A stretch of 64,000 bases of DNA from positions 34,859 to 98,858 of IMG/VR virus record IMGVR_UViG_3300009194_000008; one strand, given 5' to 3'. A program made the translations under genes and the position numbers. This document shows, piece by piece, positions 19,659 through 35,354 of this stretch. How positions within the stretch are numbered: the stretch's first letter is position 1; each line of letters starts with the position of its first letter. A model generated the notes under the pieces. That model saw only the letters and a list, made by a program, of their open reading frames with translations. It was not told the origin of the DNA and did no database searches. Origin of the DNA: a virus.

Positions 19659-20546
19659 TTACAGGAAGGTCGCGTTGTTGACGTCCTGCTCACCCAGCAT
19701 CGGTTCAACCCCACCCACGTCCAGCGTGAAGGTTGCCCCGTTGGTGGCGTACCCGATCGCATGATAGGTCGCGACATGCACATTCACCTGACAGGCAATG
19801 CACTCTTGGTAGGTGAACGTCCCGGCACCACCCGAACTGCCCTGGACTTCCTTGTCGACACCGGAACACAGGGCGATCTCGGAGATCACTGGTGAGCGAA
19901 CGGACCCTGTACGGATTTTGTGGGCATTGAGGATTTCGGCGATATCATCCGGACCCAACTCAACGGTCATCACCGCTGAAGCGGACTCAGAACTACTGGA
20001 ACCGAGGACGATACCAGTGTTTGAGATAGCGGGGCGTTCCGGGTTGAGGTTATCGGTAGTCGGGGTAAAAGGCGTGGTGGTTGCCACCCCATCAGTCACC
20101 TCTACACGCTGTAGCTGCGCTACCACATCGTCCATGGTAATACGACGCAGATAGTAGGCCACATAGTTCACCCCATCGTGGGTTTCCAGCACCCGTAAGG
20201 CGTAACGGTCACGAACATGCGCCGGGAGATCATTGGTGACTTCACGTAACACAAAGGGGATCTGTCCATAGAGACCCGCATCAGTAGCGCGATGCGGGAC
20301 CGGTACGGTTTCATCACTACCATCGTCAGCCTTGACGGTAGCGTGGCCCAGGTTACCGATCGCGAAGTAGCGCATGGCTGGGGTCTGTGTCGCAGGCGGA
20401 GTAACACCGGCCTGAACATCGAAACGTTCATTGAGAGTGGTGTTCTCAATCAATTCAAACGGGATGCCCAGGTTTTTGATCGTTTGCAAATACGTCCCGT
20501 AAACAGTCCGCGTGACGCCAATGATTTCTTGGTCCATAGAGGCCAT
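19659..20546 (-). CDS. Virion structural protein, unknown family
   Basis: 295 aa, AGGAATACATC before ATG. It is soluble and beta-rich, with segments such as 'VTRTVYGTYLQTIKNLGIPFELIENTTLNERFD' and a Cys-containing C-terminal half ('ALCSGVDKEV', 'ECIACQVNVHVATYHAIGY'). Its composition is typical of baseplate or tail-sheath initiators of jumbo phages. It is separated by about 70 nt from the modification operon upstream, so the modification genes may share its transcript. Confidence 0.5.
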   Translation of the reverse strand: MASMDQEIIGVTRTVYGTYLQTIKNLGIPFELIENTTLNERFDVQAGVTPPATQTPAMRYFAIGNLGHATVKADDGSDETVPVPHRATDAGLYGQIPFVLREVTNDLPAHVRDRYALRVLETHDGVNYVAYYLRRITMDDVVAQLQRVEVTDGVATTTPFTPTTDNLNPERPAISNTGIVLGSSSSESASAVMTVELGPDDIAEILNAHKIRTGSVRSPVISEIALCSGVDKEVQGSSGGAGTFTYQECIACQVNVHVATYHAIGYATNGATFTLDVGGVEPMLGEQDVNNATFL

Positions 20547-20616: not shown

Positions 20617-21102
20617 TCAACGTAACCTAAGGTTGATCCCATCAAAATGGAAGCGGTCTTCTACTGTTTCGTTCCACAACAACTCCACAGGATGACTGTA
20701 CGAGTCTTCGATTGACCGTAGTTCACGAATCAACACCCCCCACTGTTTTTGAAAATATCGAACGGAGGAGAACGAATCTCCACGGTCGATGTAGCGAATA
20801 AGATAATCATCCAGTAGGGATGGGTGTGGATACACTCGGTAATGAAAAATTTCCTGATTGATGAGTTGTTGAATGATGGGCATCTCAGTCGCAGCGAAGA
20901 TAATCCTTGCGGTTGATAGATGACACTTTAACATTCTAATGTAGTTTACCGGAAAAGTCGGATCACCGCGGTATCCATTTGTATCGAGGTCTATCACCGT
21001 ATCATCCGGTATGGATTTCGTGTGATATAGTTGGTTTTGTATTGACCGGAACATCCGGGACTTTCCCACGCCCGGAAAACCACAGACGACATGTGGTTGC
21101 AT
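20617..21102 (-). CDS. P-loop NTPase/kinase-like protein
   Basis: 161 aa with a Walker A motif at residues ~8-15 ('GFPGVGKS') and a 'DLDTNGYRGDPTFPVNYIRML' segment. The latter resembles small phage ATP-binding proteins related to nucleotide kinases (GFPGVGKS ... NYI). 'YIDRGDSFSSV' later suggests a lid arginine. It is the last gene of the modification operon, 5 nt after the 2OG oxygenase. Substrate unknown; phosphorylation within the same pathway is a possibility only. Confidence 0.6.
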   Translation of the reverse strand: MQPHVVCGFPGVGKSRMFRSIQNQLYHTKSIPDDTVIDLDTNGYRGDPTFPVNYIRMLKCHLSTARIIFAATEMPIIQQLINQEIFHYRVYPHPSLLDDYLIRYIDRGDSFSSVRYFQKQWGVLIRELRSIEDSYSHPVELLWNETVEDRFHFDGINLRLR

Positions 21103-21107
21103 GAGGG

Positions 21108-21659
21108 TTACCCGAATGTGAAGTCAGTGGTTAATGCTACCCGAAACTCCCCTGGGTGGGGGAGTACATAGTGAGGGATGTAACACGGAAAGATCACCAT
21201 CATACCCGTTGTCGGGGAAATGTGGTGATTCGCGAAATATCCACGTCGAACCGGTGTGGGGTATGATCGACATGCCGCACCACGGGGATCCATCAGGGTG
21301 AGGTCCCCTGGCGCCGCCGCAAGATACAACACCGTGGTCAACAGTGAATGACCGTGGATATGGGGTTCAATCCCGGCGTTGTTATGTCCATGAACCGCCC
21401 AACTGTGATAGGACATTGTTGATTCGTCAATTGGGTAATCCCAGCAGTCTTTTGTGTACTGTAAGACGGCTGGTACGATTACCTCGCGCCGCAAGCGCCA
21501 CAAGTAGGGCGTGTGTTCCTCACTAATGATCTCTTGCTCGTCCGCACCCCACTGGGCCATTTGCGGACTACTAAAGATTTCAGTAATGGCGCGTTCTTCG
21601 TCGATGTCCTTTATAACCTGTTGTCCAATCTGTGTGCGCCACGGTTCATGGTATTCCAT
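21108..21659 (-). CDS. 2OG-Fe(II) oxygenase-like protein
   Basis: 183 aa, following the phage 2OG-Fe(II) oxygenase pattern: 'SYHSWAVHGHNNAGIEPHIHGHS' region (His100/His102/His104), 'LTTVLYLAAAPGDLTLMDPRG', then 'SPTTGMMVIFPCYIPHYVLPH' with distal His163 and Arg173 for 2-oxoglutarate. It would hydroxylate an amino acid or other substrate. Its ATG overlaps the rSAM stop (TAATG), so the two are translationally coupled. The exact iron ligand set needs a structure-based alignment. Confidence 0.75.
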   Translation of the reverse strand: MEYHEPWRTQIGQQVIKDIDEERAITEIFSSPQMAQWGADEQEIISEEHTPYLWRLRREVIVPAVLQYTKDCWDYPIDESTMSYHSWAVHGHNNAGIEPHIHGHSLLTTVLYLAAAPGDLTLMDPRGAACRSYPTPVRRGYFANHHISPTTGMMVIFPCYIPHYVLPHPGEFRVALTTDFTFG

Positions 21660-22753
21660 TACGCCTCCCGGCTAGTGGCAATTAAACCACTCTCATTAAC
21701 GTAGGGGGTAGGTTCCAGCTGACCTGTCATCCCATTAGCTTCGATAATGTCTGGTGCTAGACGTTTCATTTTCTGACAATGGTGTTCGACCAGACCCAAG
21801 GCCTTATGGTCGTGGGTTGTCTTTTTGCAGGAATTACAAATCGAAAACATGGGACACCCATAACAGCTATACTTCATCACGCTGATTTCGGGGTCGTTCT
21901 GTAGTGGTGTGGTCAACTCTCCGGTCATTTCACTATTAAAGTCAATCGCGTATTTTTTATCGTCAGCAAATGCTGGACAGCTATAGTAGTCGCCGGATGG
22001 TTGTAGCGTACGTATCCCTGCATCACACTGTCGCGACAATGGGCAAGTAGTGAGTTCCCCTCTCAACTTACGTACCATCTGCTTTGTATTATATTCCCAC
22101 TCCGTGAGGCCGGCTTTCCATATATCAACGTAGTGTCCATACATGTCAGCAAGTAGGTAAAGGGATCCCTCATTGCCCATTTGTCGGCCTTTGATCTCTA
22201 CCGATGGCCCCGATGACATTGCGTAGTTGGCTTTACATTCAACTTCCATCTCACGGGCCAGACGGACGTGATCCAAAACCCGGTCGGCATTGTCTTCATC
22301 GATAACCGAAATGAAGTCTGGCCGGTAACCACAGATATCCAACATGCAATCGGAGACTTTCCAGAACTCTTCTTCGGTAAAGGGGGTAAAATCCCCCTTC
22401 AGTCGCTTATCGCCGTACTGGAAACTGGTAATTACCGAGAACTTTGGGTGTTGAAAAACCGCCCGCCAACGCTCGGGTTTCTTGTAGAACGGCCACAGGT
22501 TACTGGTGATACTTACAATAACATCAAGGTTCTCATCATCGAGGTAGTCCAGCAGTTCTTGGTAATAGTCAGGGGTCATCATCAGCGGATCGCCACCGTT
22601 GACAATAATTGTCTCTGTCTCCGGGAACCTAACCAGGAAGGCTTTGATTTGATCCAATGACAACTCATCCCCTGCATCATCGGCAATCGACGTACTGGAA
22701 CAGAAGGTGCATTTGAAATTACACCGTTCTGTTGGTTTAATTACGAGATCCAC
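21659..22753 (-). CDS. Radical SAM/SPASM peptide-modifying enzyme 1
   Basis: About 364 aa from a GTG preceded by AAGGAG. The radical SAM cluster motif CxxxCxxC is complete ('RCNFKCTFC', Cys11/15/18), followed by 'IIVNGGDPLM', the GGE-like SAM-binding motif with Asp in place of Glu. The C-terminus is a SPASM-type region: 'CPLSRQC', 'GDYYSCPAF', 'YSCYGCPMFSICNSC' and a final 'HHC'. This domain order is that of RiPP maturases and anSME-type enzymes. It shares an operon with a second rSAM/SPASM enzyme and a Cys-rich candidate substrate. Confidence 0.9.
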   Translation of the reverse strand: MDLVIKPTERCNFKCTFCSSTSIADDAGDELSLDQIKAFLVRFPETETIIVNGGDPLMMTPDYYQELLDYLDDENLDVIVSITSNLWPFYKKPERWRAVFQHPKFSVITSFQYGDKRLKGDFTPFTEEEFWKVSDCMLDICGYRPDFISVIDEDNADRVLDHVRLAREMEVECKANYAMSSGPSVEIKGRQMGNEGSLYLLADMYGHYVDIWKAGLTEWEYNTKQMVRKLRGELTTCPLSRQCDAGIRTLQPSGDYYSCPAFADDKKYAIDFNSEMTGELTTPLQNDPEISVMKYSCYGCPMFSICNSCKKTTHDHKALGLVEHHCQKMKRLAPDIIEANGMTGQLEPTPYVNESGLIATSREA

Positions 22754-22762
22754 ACCCACTCC

Positions 22763-23824
22763 TTAGTCGGCCCACCCGACTTTAACTGGATTGCCTGACG
22801 CACGGTTGGCCAGTGCCCAGAAAACCAGATTCGTGGTAAACATGCGCGATTCCATGGGAGGAACAATGAGCGTCAACCGATCCAACTGCGTATAAGCGTC
22901 AATATACCCGTCCACTATTTCGTCGTCGGGGAGTTCGAGAAGTTCAATCGGCACAGTCATTTCACGCACATTTGTCTCGAGGTACGTGTTGGTGTTGATG
23001 GTGTTAAGGAGTTTGCGGAGATCGTGTTGATATCCTTCCTTAAACGCCACGATTTTCTCAGAAGATGAAAATACATCTTCAAGGTCAACCTCACGCGACA
23101 CTACCTTGAGTCCTTCGATATCACGCAGTGGGGAATTCATAGTCAGTGTAGCGGTGGGGAGCTCCCCTAGCATCTTTTTAATATGTGGCGAGAAATACAG
23201 ATACCCCAACTTACTCCGTTGTGTTTCTATTTGATCATTAATTGCCCGATAAAGGCGATGACGTAGTCGTGTGGGTAAGGTAGTATCCTCTTCACCTGCC
23301 ATATGGCCGAGCAGGCGGTATTCCACCGGGAGGTGTTCGTGGTGGTTGTTCAAAAACTCAAATACTACATCGGAGCGCGACATTTCTGTCATGCACCGTT
23401 TGATAAAGTTAGGTGTTGTCGTTTCACTACCCCAAATGAACGTTGATTCAGAGCGTTCACGGTTAAGGAACAGTAAGAACGCAAGTTCACACAGCGCGCT
23501 ATGGGAAAGCTTTGGGAACAGGTGACGAACCCAGAAACAGAAAAGCTTGACATAGGCCTCGTCGTCACAGAAGATAACCACGGGCCTGTCGCGGTCACAT
23601 AACAGTTCTAACTCATCAGGAAAAACACTCGTAATAAAGTCATCGACGTCCTTGGTATAATAACAGGTCTGTGCGAGTTCTGGAATACCTAACGACTTCG
23701 ACAGTCGATCATCTTCGGATTCTAGAAAATGATCCTCAATACCACTACCAATGATGTATCGTTGGGTGTTACTGTTGAGGTGGTCAATATGGTCAACATA
23801 AACGTCGTCAAATAACAGGTACAT
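22763..23824 (-). CDS. Unknown protein of the rSAM operon (353 aa)
   Basis: Start chosen at the ATG preceded by AGGAGTTGAGA. The protein is soluble, rich in Asp, Glu and Leu, with a likely alpha/beta N-terminal half ('MYLLFDDVYVDHIDHLN', 'DRPVVIFCDDEAYVKLF') and a helical middle. No catalytic motif or membrane segment is recognised. It overlaps the next upstream gene by 17 nt, so expression is coupled. It might be a precursor-recognition (RRE-like or HxsD-like) partner or scaffold, which is inference from context only. Confidence 0.6.
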   Translation of the reverse strand: MYLLFDDVYVDHIDHLNSNTQRYIIGSGIEDHFLESEDDRLSKSLGIPELAQTCYYTKDVDDFITSVFPDELELLCDRDRPVVIFCDDEAYVKLFCFWVRHLFPKLSHSALCELAFLLFLNRERSESTFIWGSETTTPNFIKRCMTEMSRSDVVFEFLNNHHEHLPVEYRLLGHMAGEEDTTLPTRLRHRLYRAINDQIETQRSKLGYLYFSPHIKKMLGELPTATLTMNSPLRDIEGLKVVSREVDLEDVFSSSEKIVAFKEGYQHDLRKLLNTINTNTYLETNVREMTVPIELLELPDDEIVDGYIDAYTQLDRLTLIVPPMESRMFTTNLVFWALANRASGNPVKVGWAD

Positions 23825-24539
23825 TCTCAACTCCTAATTCACTAACCGCTTTATTGAACCGAGCGATAAACTCTTTCTCATCAAACTCGCCCTGCTGTAT
23901 CCCGATGCCGATCAGGAATACCGGATTTTCAGCATTACACCAAAAAAGTTCCAGTGTACTTCCCCGGTAAAGGGGTTTATCGTAAAGATCCTGATAGTAA
24001 CACAACGGAATAATGGGGGTGCCATCCAGGAGTAATGGGAACAGATCGTGGCCGATTAGTTTAATATAGTTAATTCCCGTTAGATCCCGATCGGTTACTA
24101 CCTCGTGTTGTTTGAAAATATAGTCCTCATTGACCCCGGTCCATTTCATGTTGTAGAGACTGAGTGACTCGATAATACTCAGCCAACGGTAAATAATGTC
24201 ACGGTTTTGAGGGTCGATGATAAGATCGTGGTAGTCGATCCCCGACTCACTGGCAAACCCTTTAATTTGTAGTAATACTTCTAGGACGCCACGTTCCAGC
24301 TGAGGTAGGTCATGCACCATAGGAGAGCGCATATACGCCAGCAACAGAGAAAAATAATCATCGGTTGATGTAAAATCTAACGTTACTTCCATTCCGAGGT
24401 TGGTCAAATACGTCAAAAATACTTGCCCTTCAAGTTTCGACTCCGCTACGTCGATAACCACCTCAGGCGTGGGCTTCTCAGCCACCAGTCTTTTGATAAC
24501 ATCGGTGGGGACTGGAACTACCGTATTAATTGCTTGCAT
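23808..24539 (-). CDS. Unknown protein of the rSAM operon (243 aa)
   Basis: AGGACAACCTAG precedes the ATG. It has 'VPVPTDVIKRLVAEKPTPEVVIDVAESKLEGQVFLTYLTNLGMEV' at the N-terminus, strongly helical, then a mixed fold with 'YYQDLYDKPLYRGSTLELFWC'. No recognised motif. It sits directly after the CHxS-tail protein and overlaps the 353-aa unknown. A peptide-binding or chaperone role for the modification enzymes is a guess. Confidence 0.6.
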   Translation of the reverse strand: MQAINTVVPVPTDVIKRLVAEKPTPEVVIDVAESKLEGQVFLTYLTNLGMEVTLDFTSTDDYFSLLLAYMRSPMVHDLPQLERGVLEVLLQIKGFASESGIDYHDLIIDPQNRDIIYRWLSIIESLSLYNMKWTGVNEDYIFKQHEVVTDRDLTGINYIKLIGHDLFPLLLDGTPIIPLCYYQDLYDKPLYRGSTLELFWCNAENPVFLIGIGIQQGEFDEKEFIARFNKAVSELGVENVPVI

Positions 24540-24564
24540 CTAGGTTGTCCTCTATACTTAGTTT

Positions 24565-25137
24565 TTACACACCACCACCGTTACCTGGACCGTCGCCATG
24601 ACAGCTAGAGTGGCAACTATAATGGCAGCTAGAATGACAGAATGTTTCGCTGATGGATACCGTTGAATTCCGTACATTGACCACCTTATTCTTTACCGCC
24701 GTCATGTACGATCTCAGATCGCCATAATCGACCGGATTTCCAGCGGCCGTGCCACTGCCTCCAGGATCACTAATACCTGTCCTATAACCACTATGTAGAT
24801 GACCAATGCGGGTCTCATTAGCAAATACATAATACCTGGAGTTATTGTTGTACCGCATATACACTGAAACACGGCGGATTGCTGTGTACAGCGCGGCATG
24901 TGCGACAATACGACTGCGCATGGTAGACGAGTCAATATTACCGGAGAAGTCACTGGTACTTGGACTATTGTAAAGTCCATTTTTCGACCCAGTGAAGTAC
25001 GACTCGTATGTACTCCGGGCATAGCCGTTGTAATCAGGTGGGTAATTGCCACTTCCCCAACTAATTCCCGAATTCAGAGGATTTCGAATGTAGGCGTTAA
25101 ACAGGTTAACGACGTGCTGTGATGTAACATCGGTCAT
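24565..25137 (-). CDS. Candidate modified protein with C-terminal CHxS repeat
   Basis: 190 aa with AAGGATAATG before ATG. The body (1-160) is rich in Tyr, Ser, Asn, Gly and Arg with no membrane segment ('YARSTYESYFTGSKNGLYNSPSTSDFSG'). The C-terminus is a four-residue repeat, Cys-His-Ser-Ser / Cys-His-Tyr-Ser / Cys-His-Ser-Ser / Cys-His-Gly-Asp (Cys167, 171, 175, 179), closing in a Gly-rich tail. His-x-Ser triplets recall precursors of known bacterial His-Xaa-Ser (Hxs) radical SAM systems, which also use two rSAM enzymes. Here Cys is added and the period is four. It lies 6 nt from the rSAM/SPASM gene upstream. I infer that it is the substrate of the operon. Confidence 0.8.
   Translation of the reverse strand: MTDVTSQHVVNLFNAYIRNPLNSGISWGSGNYPPDYNGYARSTYESYFTGSKNGLYNSPSTSDFSGNIDSSTMRSRIVAHAALYTAIRRVSVYMRYNNNSRYYVFANETRIGHLHSGYRTGISDPGGSGTAAGNPVDYGDLRSYMTAVKNKVVNVRNSTVSISETFCHSSCHYSCHSSCHGDGPGNGGGV
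24598..24639 (-). repeat. (Cys-His-x-Ser)n coding repeat
   Basis: Four 12-nt units, each encoding Cys-His-x-Ser/Asp, with synonymous differences in the Cys, His and Ser codons. Divergence at synonymous positions suggests the repeat is kept at protein level rather than by recent slippage. Four Cys and four His are spaced regularly every four residues. Confidence 0.85.
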
Positions 25138-25143
25138 GTTTCA

Positions 25144-26184
25144 TTATCCTTCAATCATCGTAAGTGGGATGAGGTTGTCGCCGCCTCTCTGGATGTAACG
25201 CAAAAGATTTTTCAAACCACCGCACCGGTCACCCTGCCAGGGAAGTTGATGACAATCACCGCCACATAGATGAAACACATCACACTGTAAACAGTTGGGG
25301 TGAAAATTCAACTCGTGGGTGATTTCAGCAAGTCGCCCATCGCTGGTAAGAAAGGTTTCAACACTGTCGTCAATCGTGGCATGTTTATTACTTGCTGCGG
25401 TGTTGGGACATCCAGCGAGTGACCCATCGGCGTTCATTGTTACTAGATTCTGTTCGCAGTTACGGCAGTTGGTGTCTGTCTTAACCACCTGTGTATCAAG
25501 CTTCTCCTCAATTATATCTAAGGTGCCGATTGAGAAATTCCAATGGTACTGTGGATCCTTGTATAATTTATAGACCTCGACAAACCAATTATCTTGAGCT
25601 TCGTTATCCGGAAAGATCGCCGGGTTGCGCACGGCGTTACCATCCAGCGTCAGGCGTTCCAGTTTGATGTTCTCCGGCGCTACCTGTTGCATCTCATTAA
25701 GGAACTCCATTATCTCCATATTCACCAGTTCGGTGTTGACCGAAACAAAAACACACCGTGGAATCCCTTCGTTCTTCAAGATGGCAACATTCTTTTCCCA
25801 TAGCGCCTTTTGGTTATGGGTTTCAAAACGAATCCCTACATCCCAGCTGGTACCGACAAACCCAATGCGGCGTAAGAGCGCCAGTTTCCGATCATCCAAC
25901 TTCAACACGAGGTTCGTCGTAATTGTAATTGCAACATTTGGTTGTTTTTCATAATAGGCAACGAATCGTTCCAAATCCTCTATGGGGGCAAGAAGTGGCT
26001 CACCTCCATGTAGGATCAGCATCACCTGTTCCCCTTCTGGGTAGTGGGCGATAAATTGATCAATCCAGGCAATGGTGGCGTCTGCATCCCACTTGACTTT
26101 ACTCCCGTTGCGTCCGTTAGTAAAGCAGTGGTCACAATGCAGGTTACAAGTATCGGACGTCTTAACATAAATTGCCTTACTCAT
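25144..26184 (-). CDS. Radical SAM/SPASM peptide-modifying enzyme 2
   Basis: 346 aa, GTGAGGATGT before ATG. CxxxCxxC is intact ('TCNLHCDHC', Cys13/17/20), followed by 'MLILHGGEPLL', the GGE SAM-binding motif. The C-terminal SPASM-type domain carries 'CRNC', 'DGSLAGCPN', 'HPNCLQCDVFHLCGGDCHQLPW' and 'RCGG', close to the anSME/RiPP maturase style. It is closer to canonical maturases than rSAM 1. The gene is separated by 6 nt from both its neighbours, the prolyl-hydroxylase-like gene and the CHxS protein. Confidence 0.92.
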   Translation of the reverse strand: MSKAIYVKTSDTCNLHCDHCFTNGRNGSKVKWDADATIAWIDQFIAHYPEGEQVMLILHGGEPLLAPIEDLERFVAYYEKQPNVAITITTNLVLKLDDRKLALLRRIGFVGTSWDVGIRFETHNQKALWEKNVAILKNEGIPRCVFVSVNTELVNMEIMEFLNEMQQVAPENIKLERLTLDGNAVRNPAIFPDNEAQDNWFVEVYKLYKDPQYHWNFSIGTLDIIEEKLDTQVVKTDTNCRNCEQNLVTMNADGSLAGCPNTAASNKHATIDDSVETFLTSDGRLAEITHELNFHPNCLQCDVFHLCGGDCHQLPWQGDRCGGLKNLLRYIQRGGDNLIPLTMIEG

Positions 26185-26190
26185 ACATCC

Positions 26191-26976
26191 TCACGTCAGC
26201 GGAGGGAGTTTAGTGTCGTCGATCAGATGTTCTCTGAACCACTTGATCACTACGTACTTGGTGTGGGTGACTACAGGTGTAGACAGGTGGTGGGCCTTAT
26301 TGTCGGCTGTCGCAAGGGGGTAGTTAAAAAACAACAACGACCCTTTTTTTGGGTAAACGCAAATACCCAAGTGATCAAAGCAGGTACCGCCATCACCATG
26401 TGTGTCATTTAAATACATGACCATGGTACCGACCCGTTGTCCTCCATTATCAAGTGCCCGAGAACGGTTTTTTCCTTCGCCAAAGAAATCATGGTGTCCA
26501 CGGATACCTTCGTCGTAGTCGTACCGAACAAAACTACTACGTTCCGTTTTAAACCGTGGCCATAATGTAATCGCCTCAAGGCGTTCTTCAAACCTCTTCA
26601 TAATCGGACATGAACTACGTTTTAGAGCTTTCCCATATGCAGTGCGACGCTCGTCAATAACCTCATTACCTTCATGGTCTAAAAGAAAACCCATGCGTTT
26701 GAGACCGGTGTTGTATTTTTCGATGAGGGTATCGCATTCAACATCGGTTAGAAAATGATCGATAACTCTAACATGCGGGTCATCAATGGAGAGACGTACA
26801 CAACAGTCATCTGGAAGTAGGTGACGTGCACTGTTTAGGGAGTGCTCACTGATGGTTGGTGCCACACGGTACGGGGGTATCGGGTATGACATTAATAGGT
26901 ACTCTGGGTGGAGTGATGGTATTTCTATAATATTCCCTAACGGGGTATTCCTCCACCAACCCGGATAGACCCACAT
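26191..26976 (-). CDS. Prolyl 4-hydroxylase-like 2OG-Fe(II) oxygenase
   Basis: 261 aa as called; an inner ATG at 26892 is possible. The P4H-type catalytic core is clear from ~150: 'FVRYDYDEGIRGHHDFF' (iron ligands His161/Asp163), 'TMVMYLNDTHGDGGTCF', 'VYPKKGSLLFFNYPL' and 'NKAHHLSTPVVTHTKYVVIKWF' (distal His230, Lys240 for 2-oxoglutarate). Such enzymes hydroxylate Pro or other side chains. It is the first gene of the modification operon, with TAAGGA inside the loop of the upstream hairpin as its ribosome site. Confidence 0.85.
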   Translation of the reverse strand: MWVYPGWWRNTPLGNIIEIPSLHPEYLLMSYPIPPYRVAPTISEHSLNSARHLLPDDCCVRLSIDDPHVRVIDHFLTDVECDTLIEKYNTGLKRMGFLLDHEGNEVIDERRTAYGKALKRSSCPIMKRFEERLEAITLWPRFKTERSSFVRYDYDEGIRGHHDFFGEGKNRSRALDNGGQRVGTMVMYLNDTHGDGGTCFDHLGICVYPKKGSLLFFNYPLATADNKAHHLSTPVVTHTKYVVIKWFREHLIDDTKLPPLT

Positions 26977-27012: not shown

Positions 27013-28299
27013 TTATTGCCACTGTGGCGGCCACACGGTTCGCCATGAACCACTAACCCGTGCCTGGAGCTGTCCATTGTAAACTCTCAGGCTGGTTTCG
27101 TCGCTGGAGTTTTTGATCACGTAACGACTATCGTGTTCATTACCCGCAATGTGGTCATTCAGTGCCTGACGAACACGCTGCGGTGTCATGAAACGGTTGC
27201 CGGCGGTACCATTCACAGCATCACTGTAAGAGGCAGTCGGGTAGTTGTCTACATTACCTAACCCCACCTGAGCTTTCGTAACGTTGTGTGGGTTGTTGGT
27301 GTTAGTGGTATGTTGCTCCAACTGCCGTCCCGCTTGGAAATCAATGGCTTGCGCGGTGCGCAGTGGGGTCATATACCGATCGTTACGATCCCCAACTTCA
27401 GCCTCGCCCTGGGATGAAAGAGTAAAATCCTCCACCCGACCAAGACCCACTTGAGTTTTCGTGACGTTATGGGGGTTGTTATAATCATCACGGTGACTAC
27501 GAAAGTCCCGACCTAGATGAAAATCAACCCCGTGGACCAAACCCTCTACGGTTATAAAGCGGTTATTCGCGGTTCCTGTTTCAACTTCCAGTAACGTTGC
27601 GGTAGGGTAGTTATTCACTGAACCCAAACCCACCTGGGCTTTCGTGACGTTATGGGGGTTCGTTGAGTTGGCTTTGTGGTCCTGGAACCGACCATCGAGA
27701 GCATCGGTATAGTCCTTCCCAACGTCGAGCAGTTCCCGGGCGTACGCCCGTACTTCGTCATGAATTGACTGATCACCCACCACAATCGCTTGGACAACGC
27801 GTTCTAACTGGATGACCAGATACTCAAATCCATACAACTCCCATAGCGCATGTAGATGCCCTCCTGGGGGGTATTCCGATGGCTTACCAATGATCTCGGC
27901 CCATTCAACTGGTCGATCATCATCTTTCAGGGTTTGAAGTACCTGCTCCAGCGCGGCTGTTGAAATTGCAAAGTCACCACCCACCGCCTGGTAGTCGACG
28001 GTGACTTCTGAGGTAACATTGGGGTCAATAACAACCAATGTACCACAAACTTCCAGACCGCTGCGGGTAGTAGCATCCTCGTATAGGTAGGTGGCAATGT
28101 AATGGACATCGGGTTTTAACCGAAGGCCCGAAGAATCCCTAAGGACCAAGGACTCGGTATAAAACGCGCCATTGTTAGGAACAAATACACGCATGCCATC
28201 ACGTGAGTTTTCCACCAGGGTATGGCGTTCCCCAATGACCAGATTGTCTGGATTTCGTCCAGTCAGGTCCAACGGATACTTACGAATTAACGGGGTCAT
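27013..28299 (-). CDS. Long tail fibre with NPHNVTKxQVGLG repeats
   Basis: 428 aa, GTGGAGTAATCG before ATG. Residues 1-115 form a docking domain shared with the 684-aa fibre ('NPDNLVIGERHTL', 'VTVDYQAVGGDF'). From ~215 there are three shaft repeats of the form 'NPHNVTKAQVGLGxVxNYPTA', each followed by 'GTxxNRFMTP', separated by ~50-60 residues. This repeat is common in long fibres of T4-like and jumbo phages. The C-terminal ~40 residues (ESLRVYNGQLQARVSGSW-like) may be the tip. Confidence 0.85.
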   Translation of the reverse strand: MTPLIRKYPLDLTGRNPDNLVIGERHTLVENSRDGMRVFVPNNGAFYTESLVLRDSSGLRLKPDVHYIATYLYEDATTRSGLEVCGTLVVIDPNVTSEVTVDYQAVGGDFAISTAALEQVLQTLKDDDRPVEWAEIIGKPSEYPPGGHLHALWELYGFEYLVIQLERVVQAIVVGDQSIHDEVRAYARELLDVGKDYTDALDGRFQDHKANSTNPHNVTKAQVGLGSVNNYPTATLLEVETGTANNRFITVEGLVHGVDFHLGRDFRSHRDDYNNPHNVTKTQVGLGRVEDFTLSSQGEAEVGDRNDRYMTPLRTAQAIDFQAGRQLEQHTTNTNNPHNVTKAQVGLGNVDNYPTASYSDAVNGTAGNRFMTPQRVRQALNDHIAGNEHDSRYVIKNSSDETSLRVYNGQLQARVSGSWRTVWPPQWQ

Positions 28300-28317: not shown

Positions 28318-30372
28318 TTAGGCCAGTAGTGCTGTTGTTGCATCACCAAATACGGTATCCAGTTCCGATACGACATCGGTCATTTGTTGGTCAATATCGG
28401 AAAACTCGGCATCATACAGTCCAGTCACCGTAACCATAGTTGGTGAGTCCAATGTGTCGGCGGAGACAATCGCTGTAGGGTCTTCGAGCTCAGTATTGTA
28501 CAACTCGGCGATCGGAATGAGGTTAATGTTCTCAATCACACCTGCGGGTTGTATCCAAAGTTCCTGGCCGTTTTCCACATTCATGGTGGTGGCAATATTC
28601 AAATCAAACTCACCGCCATTTAGAATCGTGGCACTTGCAGGAGTTCCTGGCTCACCCATATGGATTTGAAGAATAGCATCTCGACCATTAACGTGTCGAC
28701 CGGTTAACAAGAACGACGCATTACCGGATTCGATTACCGAGTTGTCGTCTGCAAGTTGTTGCGGGCGAGTCAGTAGACGGATATACTGCGTCCCAGTTGC
28801 GTTATTGACATCAAATGAGAGGAAACGGACGAAATTGTCAGTCAATGGTCCGACAATAAGGTCAGGTACTGTTAAGCCACCCACCCTATCACTGTCAAAC
28901 GCAGTTCCAGTAAGGATGTCGGCCGCTAAATCGGGTTTAAGCAAACCAAACACACGACTTGCGTCATAAGCGACACCGTCTGTGGGCAGAAGTCCAGTGG
29001 TTATGGAGTCGATCTCCGCAATGGTGTATGCCCCTACCTGTTCCGCCGATACCTGGTGTGGGTTTTCAAAATCGTTAACATGACTTTCCAGAACCGTCCC
29101 AGTTACCGCTGCGATGGCCTCTTTTGTTGTCATCGGGGTCATGTAAAGGTCATCGCGCTCACCGGCAATTGCTTCGGAGTTGGTCGCGATAGAAAAGTTC
29201 TGTACGTTACCCAACCCGATTTGGAATTTATCCACATCGTGAGGGTTGTTAATGTCAGCAGCGTGCTGACCTAACGGAATGAGTGCTAAAACATCAATCG
29301 CCTCTGCTGTGCGCAGTGGGGTCATATACCGATCATTACGATCCCCGGCGAACGCTTCGCTTTGAACAGCGATGGGGTAGTTTTCTACTTCACCAAGGCC
29401 AATAACTTCTTTGGTCACTCCAGTGGGGTTAGTGGGATCACCACTCAAAACAGGGGCAAGACGGTCGATATAAAACTGATCAAGCGCCTGACCTACCCCA
29501 CGCGGTGACATATACCGAGTCGTCAATGACGCTTCGCGGGCTTCAACATCATCAGCGAAAAGATAGTTTTCAATGTTCCCCAGTCCCACCTGAAACTTAG
29601 TTACGGCGTGGGGATTGCTGGTGTCGGCGAGGTGCGTATTGAGTGGTTGAACCGCGTGCTCGTCTACCGTTGCCCGAACGTTGCTCGGCGACATATAGCG
29701 GTCACTACGTAACCCCGCCCGCGCTTCAGCTTCATCGGCGAAGATGTAGTTATTTACATTATCCAAACCCACTTGGGCTTTTGTGACGTTGTGTGGGTTG
29801 AGTCGATCATCCATATGTTGAGAGAAACGCCCTGACTCACTCTCAGAAATCGCGTCAACAACGTTACCAATCGAATCAACAATGTCTTGGAACCCAATAA
29901 GGTCATCCACCCGCTGTTCATGTGGGATTGGGGGGAACATCTCAGGGATAGTGTCAATCTGAGCCCAACCACGAGTTAACGGGTTAACCACTTTATTAGA
30001 GAGTTCTTCAAGAATCGCTTGATCATCGAACCCCCACTGTCCCCCAACTGTCTGGTATGTTAAGGAAACCACTCCCCCGATGTCGCGGTTCAGGAACCGA
30101 ATCGATCCAGCAATCGAACGTCCAGTTTGGGTCATTGCCTCCACAAACCAGTGGCCAACCACATAATCACGTCCTTCAACGTAAACCTCACCGGTGGTGT
30201 CGTTACGCACCACCATGGACTTAACAAAGAACGGGGCCGCTTTCGGAATCAGAAAATAGAAATCATCACGACCGGGCGTCTGTAGTGCCTGTAGTTCATT
30301 AAGCACCAAACACTCGGGATTGTTGCCGTACGGGTCAAAGGGGTAAAGACCGGTGGTGCTATGAGTAGCCAT
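28318..30372 (-). CDS. Long tail fibre with NPHxVTKxQVGLG repeats
   Basis: 684 aa, AGGACAAAAAGCC before ATG. The N-terminal ~115 residues match the docking domain of the 428-aa fibre ('GNNPECLVLNELQAL', 'VSLTYQTVGGQWG'). About five shaft repeats ('NPHNVTKAQVGLDNVNNYIFA', 'NPHAVTKFQVGLGNIENY', 'NPTGVTKEVIGLGEV', 'NPHDVDKFQIGLGNV') follow to residue ~430. The last ~250 residues differ from the paralogue and are probably the distal receptor-facing part. The two fibres are separated by 18 nt. Confidence 0.85.
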   Translation of the reverse strand: MATHSTTGLYPFDPYGNNPECLVLNELQALQTPGRDDFYFLIPKAAPFFVKSMVVRNDTTGEVYVEGRDYVVGHWFVEAMTQTGRSIAGSIRFLNRDIGGVVSLTYQTVGGQWGFDDQAILEELSNKVVNPLTRGWAQIDTIPEMFPPIPHEQRVDDLIGFQDIVDSIGNVVDAISESESGRFSQHMDDRLNPHNVTKAQVGLDNVNNYIFADEAEARAGLRSDRYMSPSNVRATVDEHAVQPLNTHLADTSNPHAVTKFQVGLGNIENYLFADDVEAREASLTTRYMSPRGVGQALDQFYIDRLAPVLSGDPTNPTGVTKEVIGLGEVENYPIAVQSEAFAGDRNDRYMTPLRTAEAIDVLALIPLGQHAADINNPHDVDKFQIGLGNVQNFSIATNSEAIAGERDDLYMTPMTTKEAIAAVTGTVLESHVNDFENPHQVSAEQVGAYTIAEIDSITTGLLPTDGVAYDASRVFGLLKPDLAADILTGTAFDSDRVGGLTVPDLIVGPLTDNFVRFLSFDVNNATGTQYIRLLTRPQQLADDNSVIESGNASFLLTGRHVNGRDAILQIHMGEPGTPASATILNGGEFDLNIATTMNVENGQELWIQPAGVIENINLIPIAELYNTELEDPTAIVSADTLDSPTMVTVTGLYDAEFSDIDQQMTDVVSELDTVFGDATTALLA

Positions 30373-32861: not shown

Positions 32862-35354
32862 TTAGCTGAGTTTGACGTGTTGGTTGTAGTCTTGTGGGAC
32901 CGATACGTTGCGTGGGTCGAGCACCATCACTTCGGCTTGGTTGAACGCCCCATGTGTGGTCACGTAGTGGCTGATGAAAAACACTTGGTCGATCTGGTTC
33001 AATTCCAACATCTGGTTGATGAACGGAATCAGATTCTGCCGGTGTTGTTCATCAAAGGTACTGCCGAACTCATCTAGGTATAACGGCATGTCTTCCAGAC
33101 CCATGAACTTCATGACCAGGAGCTTGAAGGCGAAGTCCACAATGTCCCGCTGGGAGGCTGAACCACGTGAGATGTCGGGAGCGGTCACCGCACCATTATT
33201 GACATCCAGTGGGAACTTGTAGTCCAACTCATCTTTCTCGACCTGTGAGGGCAGAACCTCCATGGGGTAGGTCCAGATTTCAGCGATGACGGCGTTGACC
33301 ATCTTGACCACGTTTTGCATGAACCCCATCAGGTAACGACCGATCAGGCCGTCAGTGGGAGCCAAGGCTTTGACCAGAATCCCATAGTCCTTGTGGGCTT
33401 GGGTGGCTTCATCGTGCTGTTGTTGCAGGTCGTTCAGTACCCCTTCACGCAATTCGATCTTGGACAAGGTCTCCTGTGTCTGCGCCAGCTGCATCTGGGT
33501 GGCTTGAGTTTCATCGACCACGGCCTTTTGGAACAGATAGTCACGCTGCTTGTCCAGATCAGCAAAGAACGCCTCCAGCTCCCCACTGGCTTCCCGAAGC
33601 AGGCGCTCATAGTCGTAGAGGGTTTGTTGTGCCTGTTCCATTGACTTGATCCGCCGGTGGCGATGACGCAGTTCTTGGGTCTCCTTATCAATTTCGGTTT
33701 CCAAGTTCTTACGCCGTTGGTCCTGTTGCGTCAGTGCTTGCTTGTCAATTGCTTCGACATACCGCAAACGATGCGCTAAGGTATCGCGATCCTGCACCGC
33801 GTGTTGCCAGGCCACCTGTGTTTGCATGGCCTCATACCACGCGATGGCCGCACTGGTGTAGTTTCGTGGCTGACGAAACATCACCTTCTCTTCAACACAG
33901 ACATCCCACAGTGGCTTGAACAGAACCGATTCATTCACCAACCGCCGGAAGCGGCGTACGTAACCAACGTAGTCCTCATAATCATCCAAATACTGCTTGT
34001 CTTCCGCGATCTGTTTGTCCAGTTGTTCGATCGCCGCGGTCATCTTTTCCTTGGTGGCCTCCAAGCCTTTGATGTCTCGCTCGGAAACACCCGGTTGGAA
34101 CTCATGATCGCATTTCGGGCACTGGACGCTCTCACAGCCCTTTAAGCGCGCCAGGCGGGTCAGTAGTCCATTTAGCTGCCCATCGAGCTTCTGGCGCTCC
34201 CCTGTGGCCTTCTGATAGCGTTCCTGTGTCGCTTTACCTTTGTCTTGGGTAAAATACCCTTCCGTGTTCTCCGGGAAGGTCTGCAACAGGGTTTGCCATT
34301 CATCGAACACTGACGTTAAGAGTTTTGTTGGTTGACGATCCAACGGTAATTCGATTAACGGGAAATGACCTTGATACCGACGAAGGTCCTGGGCCAGCGA
34401 TTCCACGTCGCGGTTCTTTTGCTCGACCTCTTGACGTAGACGGGCAATGTCCTCTTCGCTGAGGCTGTCGTCACGGGACGGTGCTTGTTGCAAAAGCTGT
34501 TGATGTTCTTCCTGCATGCGTTCCAATACGGCATGGCGGCGCTGGTATTCCGTATTGGCGTCATGAATCGCCTGTGTCAGTCCCTCAGCGGACGATACAC
34601 CCCACTCCGGGGGTAGGGTCGGTTGCTTGGCTAACAGGCGTTTAGCACGGTCTGTGCGCGTCCTCAGCTGCTCTTCCAGGTCCCGCTGGCCCGTGAAGGG
34701 TGAATGAGCATCCGACTTACGATGCGTGTAAAGCTCATCCAGTTTATCGGTAAGCTGTTTGACATGTTGGCGGTACCGTGATACCTCGCCATCGTCAGGT
34801 AGGTCTTGGTTTTCACGCCCCATGCGTTTGGTGATGTGCTTGATGACCCCCAGCTGGTCACGATGGAGGCTACGGACCTTGTTATACATGTTAAAGGCAT
34901 AGCGCATATCCACCGGGGTAAGCTTGGTGAGCCACTCACGCCGTTTGGCCGTGGACAAGCCAGTGAACGGAGTCAACCCAATCAGCAACTCATGGATCTC
35001 ACGGGTCAGACCAAAATGCTCTTCCACCAGGTCCTTCTGAACGGCCATGGTGCCGCCTTCGTTCAACTCTACTCCATCACGGATGAACGAATGATGACCA
35101 CTACCGCGTTGGTAATGTGAATCCAGGTTATAAGTGACGCCGCGGTGAACCGCAGCAAAGGTCTTACGTCCCCCTTTGGCGAAATTGCTATGGTGGGCCG
35201 GTAGGGGTGTCATCTCTTCCAGCACCGACGACTTACCTGAGCCGTTACTGCCGATAATCAACTGCATGTTGTTGCGGGGGTTGTACTCAAACCGCTGGAT
35301 ATCCGACAACATCAACCGTTTGTACTTCTCTAACACTAGCTGGGTGATGCGCAT
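32862..35354 (-). CDS. Rad50/SbcC-like recombination ATPase
   Basis: 830 aa with Walker A 'GSNGSGKSS' (residues ~35-43). Long coiled-coil arms flank a central zinc hook 'CPKC' (within CESVQCPKCDHEF). The C-terminal half-ATPase has an ABC-signature-like 'SRGSASQRDIVDFA', Walker B 'MPLYLDEFG' and 'VFFISHY'. T4 gp46-type proteins pair with a gp47/SbcD nuclease in end resection; no such nuclease is seen in this window. The start has AAGGA 10 nt upstream. Confidence 0.9.
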   Translation of the reverse strand: MRITQLVLEKYKRLMLSDIQRFEYNPRNNMQLIIGSNGSGKSSVLEEMTPLPAHHSNFAKGGRKTFAAVHRGVTYNLDSHYQRGSGHHSFIRDGVELNEGGTMAVQKDLVEEHFGLTREIHELLIGLTPFTGLSTAKRREWLTKLTPVDMRYAFNMYNKVRSLHRDQLGVIKHITKRMGRENQDLPDDGEVSRYRQHVKQLTDKLDELYTHRKSDAHSPFTGQRDLEEQLRTRTDRAKRLLAKQPTLPPEWGVSSAEGLTQAIHDANTEYQRRHAVLERMQEEHQQLLQQAPSRDDSLSEEDIARLRQEVEQKNRDVESLAQDLRRYQGHFPLIELPLDRQPTKLLTSVFDEWQTLLQTFPENTEGYFTQDKGKATQERYQKATGERQKLDGQLNGLLTRLARLKGCESVQCPKCDHEFQPGVSERDIKGLEATKEKMTAAIEQLDKQIAEDKQYLDDYEDYVGYVRRFRRLVNESVLFKPLWDVCVEEKVMFRQPRNYTSAAIAWYEAMQTQVAWQHAVQDRDTLAHRLRYVEAIDKQALTQQDQRRKNLETEIDKETQELRHRHRRIKSMEQAQQTLYDYERLLREASGELEAFFADLDKQRDYLFQKAVVDETQATQMQLAQTQETLSKIELREGVLNDLQQQHDEATQAHKDYGILVKALAPTDGLIGRYLMGFMQNVVKMVNAVIAEIWTYPMEVLPSQVEKDELDYKFPLDVNNGAVTAPDISRGSASQRDIVDFAFKLLVMKFMGLEDMPLYLDEFGSTFDEQHRQNLIPFINQMLELNQIDQVFFISHYVTTHGAFNQAEVMVLDPRNVSVPQDYNQHVKLS

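Follow-up and report, generated by a model that had tools for sequence, protein, structure and literature searches.

The window analysed here, a stretch of 64,000 nucleotides of viral DNA (positions 34,859 to 98,858 of IMG/VR record IMGVR_UViG_3300009194_000008; coordinates are those of the window), contains a run of eight minus-strand genes encoding among others two 2-oxoglutarate (2OG) oxygenases, two radical S-adenosylmethionine (SAM) enzymes, here called rSAM_A and rSAM_B, and a protein of 190 residues with a repetitive Cys/His tail (Table 1). A preliminary description of the window had drawn attention to this run, and all eight open reading frames are indeed found there, with gaps ranging from -23 to 25 nt (5, -1, 3, -23, 25, 6 and 6 nt when counted from the 20617 end). 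Both oxygenases and both radical SAM enzymes have a Pfam family above cut-off (PF13640, PF13759 and PF04055), the other four proteins have none, and the Walker-A-like motif GFPGVGKS of the described P-loop protein is present in the 161-residue protein. The 190-residue protein ends in CHSSCHYSCHSSCHGDGPGNGGGV, a tail of the CHxS type that had been noted, and the DNA pattern of these four units, which the window contains at a single place, was absent from all 100 shuffled versions. The impression that the cassette is richer in A+T than its surroundings likewise holds up, its GC content being 0.470 against 0.532 elsewhere in the window, a value that ranks second from the bottom among 289 sliding windows of equal size. 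We think it probable, with some reservation, that these genes form a cassette dedicated to modifying a fibre-tip protein of the virion after translation and that the modifications are His-x-Ser/Asn cyclophanes, and the earlier notion of an operon resembling those of ribosomally synthesized and post-translationally modified peptides (RiPPs), acting on a Cys/His-tailed virion protein, is thus largely supported.

Table 1. Features of the putative modification cassette and of the fibre genes upstream of it (HMM, hidden Markov model)
Feature	Position	Strand	Basis or remark
P-loop protein (GFPGVGKS), accessory, 161 aa	20617..21102	-	phrog_4182; homologue only in close relatives (L010)
2OG-Fe(II) oxygenase (2OG-FeII_Oxy_5)	21108..21659	-	PF13759, 42.9 bits, cut-off 27; phrog_81
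rSAM_B, second radical SAM/SPASM-like enzyme	21659..22759	-	PF04055, 40.3 bits
U2, 355 aa, conserved, function unknown	22763..23830	-	U2 HMM matches in phage and predator loci
U1 (phrog_20767), 243 aa, core, function unknown	23808..24539	-	adjoins tailed protein across loci
Putative target protein, 190 aa, folded body and C-terminal tail, fibre-tip-type	24565..25137	-	weak match to phrog_35144
Candidate modification tail, C167-V190 and stop, four H-x-[S/D] units	24565..24639	-	
rSAM_A, radical SAM/SPASM enzyme, precursor-adjacent, system core	25144..26184	-	PF04055
P4H-like 2OG-Fe(II) oxygenase	26191..26976	-	PF13640, 39.6 bits, cut-off 27
Fibre/virion protein, likely tip carrier	27013..28299	-	phrog_2163 virion structural, phrog_13857 tail protein
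Second fibre/tail protein	28318..30372	-	phrog_13857 tail protein, 600 bits

Recurrence of the cassette and form of the tail

When IMG/VR was searched with rSAM_A alone and the best 80 loci were taken, a CHxxCHxxCH protein was found in 76 of them, in 71 immediately downstream; three of the other four loci are cut by the contig end and the fourth, L030, has a two-unit tail (CHSNCHINRSRR), and a tail-bearing protein is hence present in all 77 evaluable loci among these best 80. In the reverse direction, a context-free DNA pattern of three CH units and RxRR, with no stop codon required, returned at least 120 stretches of IMG/VR, where by our own estimate under a uniform base model less than one match would be expected by chance. 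The tail is in frame in 114 of these stretches, it is exactly C-terminal in all 114 proteins, and in 108 it lies beside radical SAM genes of families A-D or of a divergent CxxxCxxC family E that was built for the analysis, the remaining six loci being mostly short or having the tailed gene near their end. The viral scans return the best-ranked members of a larger family, and the numbers of loci are therefore to be read as at least so many and the family as large. The co-occurrence of radical SAM genes with CHxS-tailed proteins, on which the preliminary description had staked its proposal, is thus seen from both sides, and the arrangement by which a RiPP is recognized, an encoded precursor with a conserved core beside tailoring enzymes, is present. 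A scan of viral contigs for a four-unit CH pattern gave mostly low-complexity chance matches and was not used as evidence.

The cassette is likewise found in named phages, and tblastn with either rSAM_A or rSAM_B retrieves the same seven records, namely Pseudomonas phage DT01, Burkholderia phages FLC6, FLC8 and SURPRISE13, Agrobacterium phage Atu_ph07 (two records) and Sinorhizobium phage Phosso. Five named-phage loci have a common order of an oxygenase or cupin, rSAM_A, a small protein, U1 or U2, and more radical SAM genes, often with a 2OG oxygenase, so that the gene order is conserved in related jumbo phages, where it recurs beside fibre genes; over the loci as a whole the number of radical SAM genes per locus is 2-7. 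rSAM_A is 49% identical to its DT01 homologue and rSAM_B 51-60% identical to those of DT01, S13, FLC6, Phosso and Atu_ph07, and the small proteins of the named phages are 23-28% identical to that of the window and have near-identical ends (CHTSCHTSCHSARGRR, CHSSCHTSCHGSRGRR, CHSSCHASCHNSRSRR and CHTSCHASCHSSRSRR), the C-terminal tryptic peptide of FLC6 gp72 being DDLQVELTVCHSSCHTSCHGSR. It should also be mentioned that two dihydrofolate reductase (DHFR)-like genes are found within Burkholderia-phage cassettes (L004:14001-15178 and L005:14216-15429).

In a 50-row alignment the C, H, C, H, C and H of the tail are invariant, the commonest phage form being CHxSCHxSCHxSRGRR-COOH and the general form CH-x-[S/N]. 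Among 232 His residues of phage tails, which were picked by way of their radical SAM genes, the residue at +2 is S in 172, N in 39, A in 16, D in 3 and Q in 2, and the 230 cases of S, N, A or D are in agreement with the aromatic-x-[N/D/S/A/R] substrate rule (PMC11002830). Since 160 distinct DNA sequences encode the tails and both Cys codons (275 TGT, 221 TGC) and both His codons (248 CAT, 238 CAC) are freely used, the tail is conserved as protein and not as DNA. Across loci the tailed proteins span 106-407 aa with a folded body, 160 of 171 bodies join one homologous family, and in an AlphaFold2 (AF2) model of the window's protein the body has a mean predicted local distance difference test score (pLDDT) of 87 and the tail one below 50, indicative of disorder. 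Foldseek finds no fold match for the tailed protein in the PDB (best E 0.37), searching PDB sequences with profiles yielded nothing beyond chance matches, and in a viral structure library the fold is matched by likely family members and by three long proteins of phage ctijX18 (BFVD A0A8S5USJ7, A0A8S5USV2 and A0A8S5USJ8, 504-660 aa, which match the body), and by nothing else. Two readings of the motif itself were rejected, haem attachment (CxxCH) being ruled out by the CxxxCH spacing and by tails that are nearly Cys-free, and formylglycine formation at CHxSR fitting the last unit only and requiring an R that is missing from the window's tail.

The tailed proteins furthermore occur in several variant forms. 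Extended tails with CHSSCHSNVPV-type repeat arrays of 13-14 CH units are found at L016:11036-11740 and L031:11034-11717, and a paralogue at L084:11016-11942, seen also in L085 and L088, has the same body N-terminus and a glycine-rich C-terminus replacing the CH tail and stands beside a tailed copy; it may represent an alternative tip. At L280:1642-2865, proline/threonine repeats, GGGGGG and a stretch resembling a Hint/intein-type self-processing domain come after the tailed protein, a resemblance that Pfam and NCBIfam did not confirm. Small tailed proteins of 125-140 aa stand in tandem pairs in L090, L143, L164, L168, L177 and L386, several of them right after very long fibre-like genes, and the phages of these six loci carry the divergent CxxxCxxC radical SAM family.

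Radical SAM enzymes and their putative chemistry

rSAM_A combines the CxxxCxxC motif with all seven SPASM cysteines (C243-x10-G254-x4-C259; C298-x2-C301-x5-C307-x3-C311; C321), which are invariant in six phages, and scores 29 bits against TIGR04085 with its cut-off of 27. Its best NCBIfam families are YhhB (NF041707, 59.5 bits, cut-off 445), anSME, FxsB (TIGR04269, 54.6 bits, cut-off 370), PapB and also DynA, all of them matched far below cut-off, and rSAM_A therefore constitutes a new family and not HxsB or HxsC; the expected relation to RiPP maturases thus stands insofar as peptide crosslinkers (YhhB, FxsB, PapB and DynA) are among the nearest, but the cut-off of no curated equivalog is reached. 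Of the solved structures, anSME 4k37 and 5wgg come closest, the latter of which we take to be CteB, a thioether-forming SCIFF maturase. Triceptide enzymes join an aromatic residue i to the Cbeta of residue i+2, with Asn, Asp, Ser, Ala and Arg as acceptors, and HaaB and YhhB use His as the first residue (PMC11002830). The H-x-[S/N] rule together with the nearest families of rSAM_A makes His-x-Ser cyclophanes the most likely product, with Cys chemistry as the main rival.

Tail modification, cyclophane chemistry and a fibre-tip product are what we infer from sequence, and the following course of events could be envisaged. The 190-residue protein would dock by its body at or close to the tail fibre whose gene lies just upstream, its flexible C-terminus with the H-x-[S/N/A/D] units, nearly all of them preceded by Cys, remaining exposed. 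rSAM_A would then take a hydrogen from the residue at i+2 and bond this residue to the His at i, resulting in a string of three-residue His-X-Ser/Asn cyclophanes, to which rSAM_B and the two 2OG oxygenases may contribute further cross-links or hydroxyl groups, possibly at Cys, His or Arg. U1 and U2 would present the folded substrate to the enzymes, replacing a leader and a recognition domain, and the tail would be kept and not released, forming a rigid tip in contact with the host envelope; a tip that has to fold as a trimer would have behind its tail an S74 chaperone that cuts itself off.

No match to the PqqD/RRE (RiPP recognition element) families of leader recognition is found in any cassette protein of the window in Pfam or NCBIfam, and the core families U1 and U2 might substitute for them; what stands of the proposed RiPP-type system is accordingly the pairing of precursor and enzymes, and not leader recognition of the known kind. 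The AF2 model of U1 has a pLDDT of 92 and no fold match in the PDB by Foldseek (best E 0.62). The slot before rSAM_A is occupied by the P4H-like oxygenase in the window and in L010 and usually by a Cupin_2/JmjC_2 protein elsewhere. Among the JmjC_2 members, NO66, MINA53 and YcfD are hydroxylases that act on His or Arg in ribosomal proteins, and by analogy a hydroxylation of this type would suit a tail with His and Arg.

Fibres of phages and predatory bacteria

In the window and in jumbo relatives the upstream neighbour of the cassette is a fibre/tail protein, which in the window is encoded on the same strand 36 nt from the P4H-like gene and has homologues in DT01, S13, L010, L016, L030 and L280. 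The location between virion genes given in the preliminary description is borne out on this side, where the fibre/tail pair matches phrog_2163 and phrog_13857; on the other side the gene at 19659-20546 has phrog_3315, a family of unknown function, as its sole match, and it is at most a candidate virion gene. Ten further loci were scanned for the families of their fibre-like neighbours, which are a tail-fibre PHROG in eight cases and phrog_22593, its accompanying C-terminal profile, in the other two. A C-terminal region of the phrog_22593/6427/19602 type is common to the fibre-like genes before the cassette in L036, L041, L099, L140, L164, L177, L346 and L002, and, recurring across unrelated phages, it is a possible docking site for the modified tip.

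The closest relative, L010, has the same gene order and a Peptidase_S74 domain fused behind the tail (44.8 bits, cut-off 22), and a cut at SDERLK would leave ...CHGDSPGTGDGTD, near the natural end ...CHGDGPGNGGGV of the window's protein. In Atu_ph07, virion proteomics describes a virion gene cluster 'CDS 170-215' (PMC6102473), and gp170, the first gene of this cluster, is the tailed protein, the numbering having been checked on gp181, gp198, gp204 and gp215. The cluster suggests that the tail is retained and not released, and the gene tables of the named-phage cassettes contain neither protease nor transporter, S74 being found in L010 only. The mounting of the product on the virion, initially a guess, thereby gains support from the L010 fusion, the fibre neighbours and the Atu_ph07 cluster boundary. 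The source record (98,858 bp) furthermore encodes pieces of RNA polymerase beta and internal head proteins, and the virus is therefore probably a phiKZ-like jumbo phage.

The cassette is also found in predatory bacteria. The tail pattern was run over 84,980 prokaryote genomes and gave 88 matches in their contigs, most of them chance occurrences in simple repeats; exact C-terminal ones were retained, and a true C-terminal tail is present in twelve prokaryote loci, six of them in Bdellovibrionota. A U1 profile is positive in 12 of 129 genomes of the class of G002, a Bacteriovorax, and in 3 of 144 of the class of G003, a metagenome-assembled genome of Bdellovibrionaceae. One predator cassette lies on a contig of 4,153,408 bp and the flanks of others hold ribosomal protein S20 and a FixG-type gene, which shows the predator cassettes to be chromosomal. 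Bdellovibrio recognises prey through S74-chaperoned fibres (PMC10769870), and in 12 of the 15 predator genomes, which have 0-19 S74 genes each, an S74 gene is found on the same contig at most 13 kb from U1; two of the other three have S74 on other contigs only and one has none. Five S74 partner genes were scanned, with S74 in L436-L440 and an N-terminal prepilin methylation motif (PF07963) in L436, L437, L438 and L439, and by their predicted domains the latter four are pilin/tailspike-chaperone chimeras with a C-terminal S74. In a midpoint-rooted tree the nine rSAM_A sequences of bacteria fall together in a single clade (support 0.977) placed among those of phages, consistent with one transfer in either direction. 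The predator tails CHSSHSSHSSHSSRGRR, CHSNHCSHSNHGSRGRR and CHGNFPPPCHGSRGRR keep H-x-[S/N] with Cys lost or shifted.

Alternative explanations and known systems

Some observations weigh against the fibre-tip and cyclophane reading. The tail of the window has no RxRR end and has H-G-D as its final unit, and Cys directly precedes 232 of 232 His residues of phage tails, although a pure His-cyclophane model needs no Cys. rSAM_A furthermore scores under every curated equivalog cut-off, the chemistry being drawn from motif and distant similarity, its anSME and PapB scores are close to that of YhhB and in predators anSME even exceeds YhhB, and the presence of gp170 in Atu_ph07 virions is deduced from the cluster boundary. 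The same target and virion site could instead be combined with Cys chemistry, that is thioether rings of ranthipeptide or sactipeptide type or anSME-like oxidation of Cys or Ser, His and Ser serving for recognition. This explanation, which we regard as unlikely yet as the most serious competitor, draws on the invariable Cys, on the anSME and PapB scores and on 4k37 and 5wgg as nearest structures; the predator tails CHSSHSSHSSHSS and CHSNHCSHSNHGS however keep H-x-[S/N] with one or two Cys only, and the near-invariable S, N, A or D at His+2 is likewise in poor agreement with it.

A Cys/His tail might also form a metal- or haem-binding tip, the enzymes acting elsewhere, for instance on the neighbouring fibre. 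Known phage spikes bind iron via His motifs and P4H-like oxygenases occur beside fibre genes, and the Cys/His density of the tail is in line with such a function, but this is made distinctly improbable by the facts that rSAM_A adjoins the tailed gene in most loci, that the neighbouring fibre families vary among phages, and that period-3 HSS repeats, almost devoid of Cys, do not fit the same metal or haem site. As Cys disappears from variant tails that retain H-x-[S/N], a cross-linked product now looks the likelier of the two types in the preliminary description, the other being a metal-binding one. Even less probable is a classical RiPP, in which the tail would be cleaved at RGRR as a processing site and leave the cell to act as a diffusible bacteriocin or superinfection factor; the precursor-plus-maturase layout and the basic RxRR end would agree with this, but the named-phage gene tables lack a protease or transporter, the precursors have a folded body and are not short leader-core peptides, and the virion cluster boundary and the S74 fusion point to retention. 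A role in auxiliary metabolism, in which a cofactor or modified nucleotide would be the product of the radical SAM and 2OG enzymes and the tailed protein incidental, is hardly credible in view of the SPASM cysteines and of the tail that universally accompanies the enzymes, in phages as well as in predators, the two DHFR-like genes of Burkholderia phages notwithstanding.

Read as a maker of His-x-Ser/Asn cyclophanes, the cassette resembles the triceptide systems (YhhB, HaaB, FxsB, XncB), where a SPASM radical SAM enzyme stands beside a protein with repeated aromatic-x-[S/N/D/A] and His is accepted as first residue, but it differs from them in its target with a folded body, in the added U1 and U2 and in the multiple radical SAM genes per locus. 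His-x-Ser repeats are likewise a trait of the His-Xaa-Ser system (HxsABCD), and a trace of similarity to HxsA (TIGR03979, 16 bits) is seen in the predator tail CHSSHSSHSSHSS; the cassette however has no Hxs member above cut-off, rSAM_B reaching 29.3 bits with HxsC against a cut-off of 267.9, and membership of this system was rejected. Phage P4H/2OG oxygenases (phrog_81, phrog_61) are similarly encoded beside fibre genes, but here they stand within a radical SAM cassette with a conserved Cys/His-tailed substrate. S74 tailspikes and the Bdellovibrio MAT fibres share the S74 autoproteolytic chaperone on trimeric adhesive fibres of phages and predatory bacteria (PMC10769870), whereas the S74 partners of the cassette include prepilin fusions and are joined by a CH-tailed protein with its maturases; the text of the MAT paper contains neither 'radical SAM' nor 'cysteine' (PMC10769870). 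Radical SAM, 2OG or cupin genes have been reported singly in papers on these phages (PMC8066314, PMC11898562, PMC5468394), and a literature search, with preprints and most subscription papers outside its scope, returned nothing that links the genes, names the tail or proposes a function.

We tentatively suggest that the cyclophane cassette belongs to an unrecognised system providing cross-linked His-cyclophane 'hard tips' for attack appendages, both tail fibres of many tailed phages and fibres or pili of predators with their pilin-S74 chimeras, and by analogy with darobactin and dynobactin, which are made by radical SAM enzymes, such tips possibly engage a conserved outer-membrane target. If true, this would be the first dedicated radical SAM pathway for a component of a viral particle and an attack device common to phages and predators, and radical SAM peptide chemistry would extend beyond small secreted natural products to a structural component of virions. 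The chromosomal cassette beside S74 genes in Bdellovibrionota would furthermore suggest a common way to touch or breach the Gram-negative envelope, and the idea is testable at once, as phages of Pseudomonas, Burkholderia, Agrobacterium and Sinorhizobium that are in culture have members of the family. Finally, a paper on jumbo phage 332-Vera, a relative of DT01, describes eight radical SAM genes in the structural cluster as 'highly unusual' and in the passages considered here proposes no substrate, tail motif or function for them (PMC12390700), and the hard-tip system, if real, would explain why up to eight radical SAM genes are found among the virion genes of some phages.

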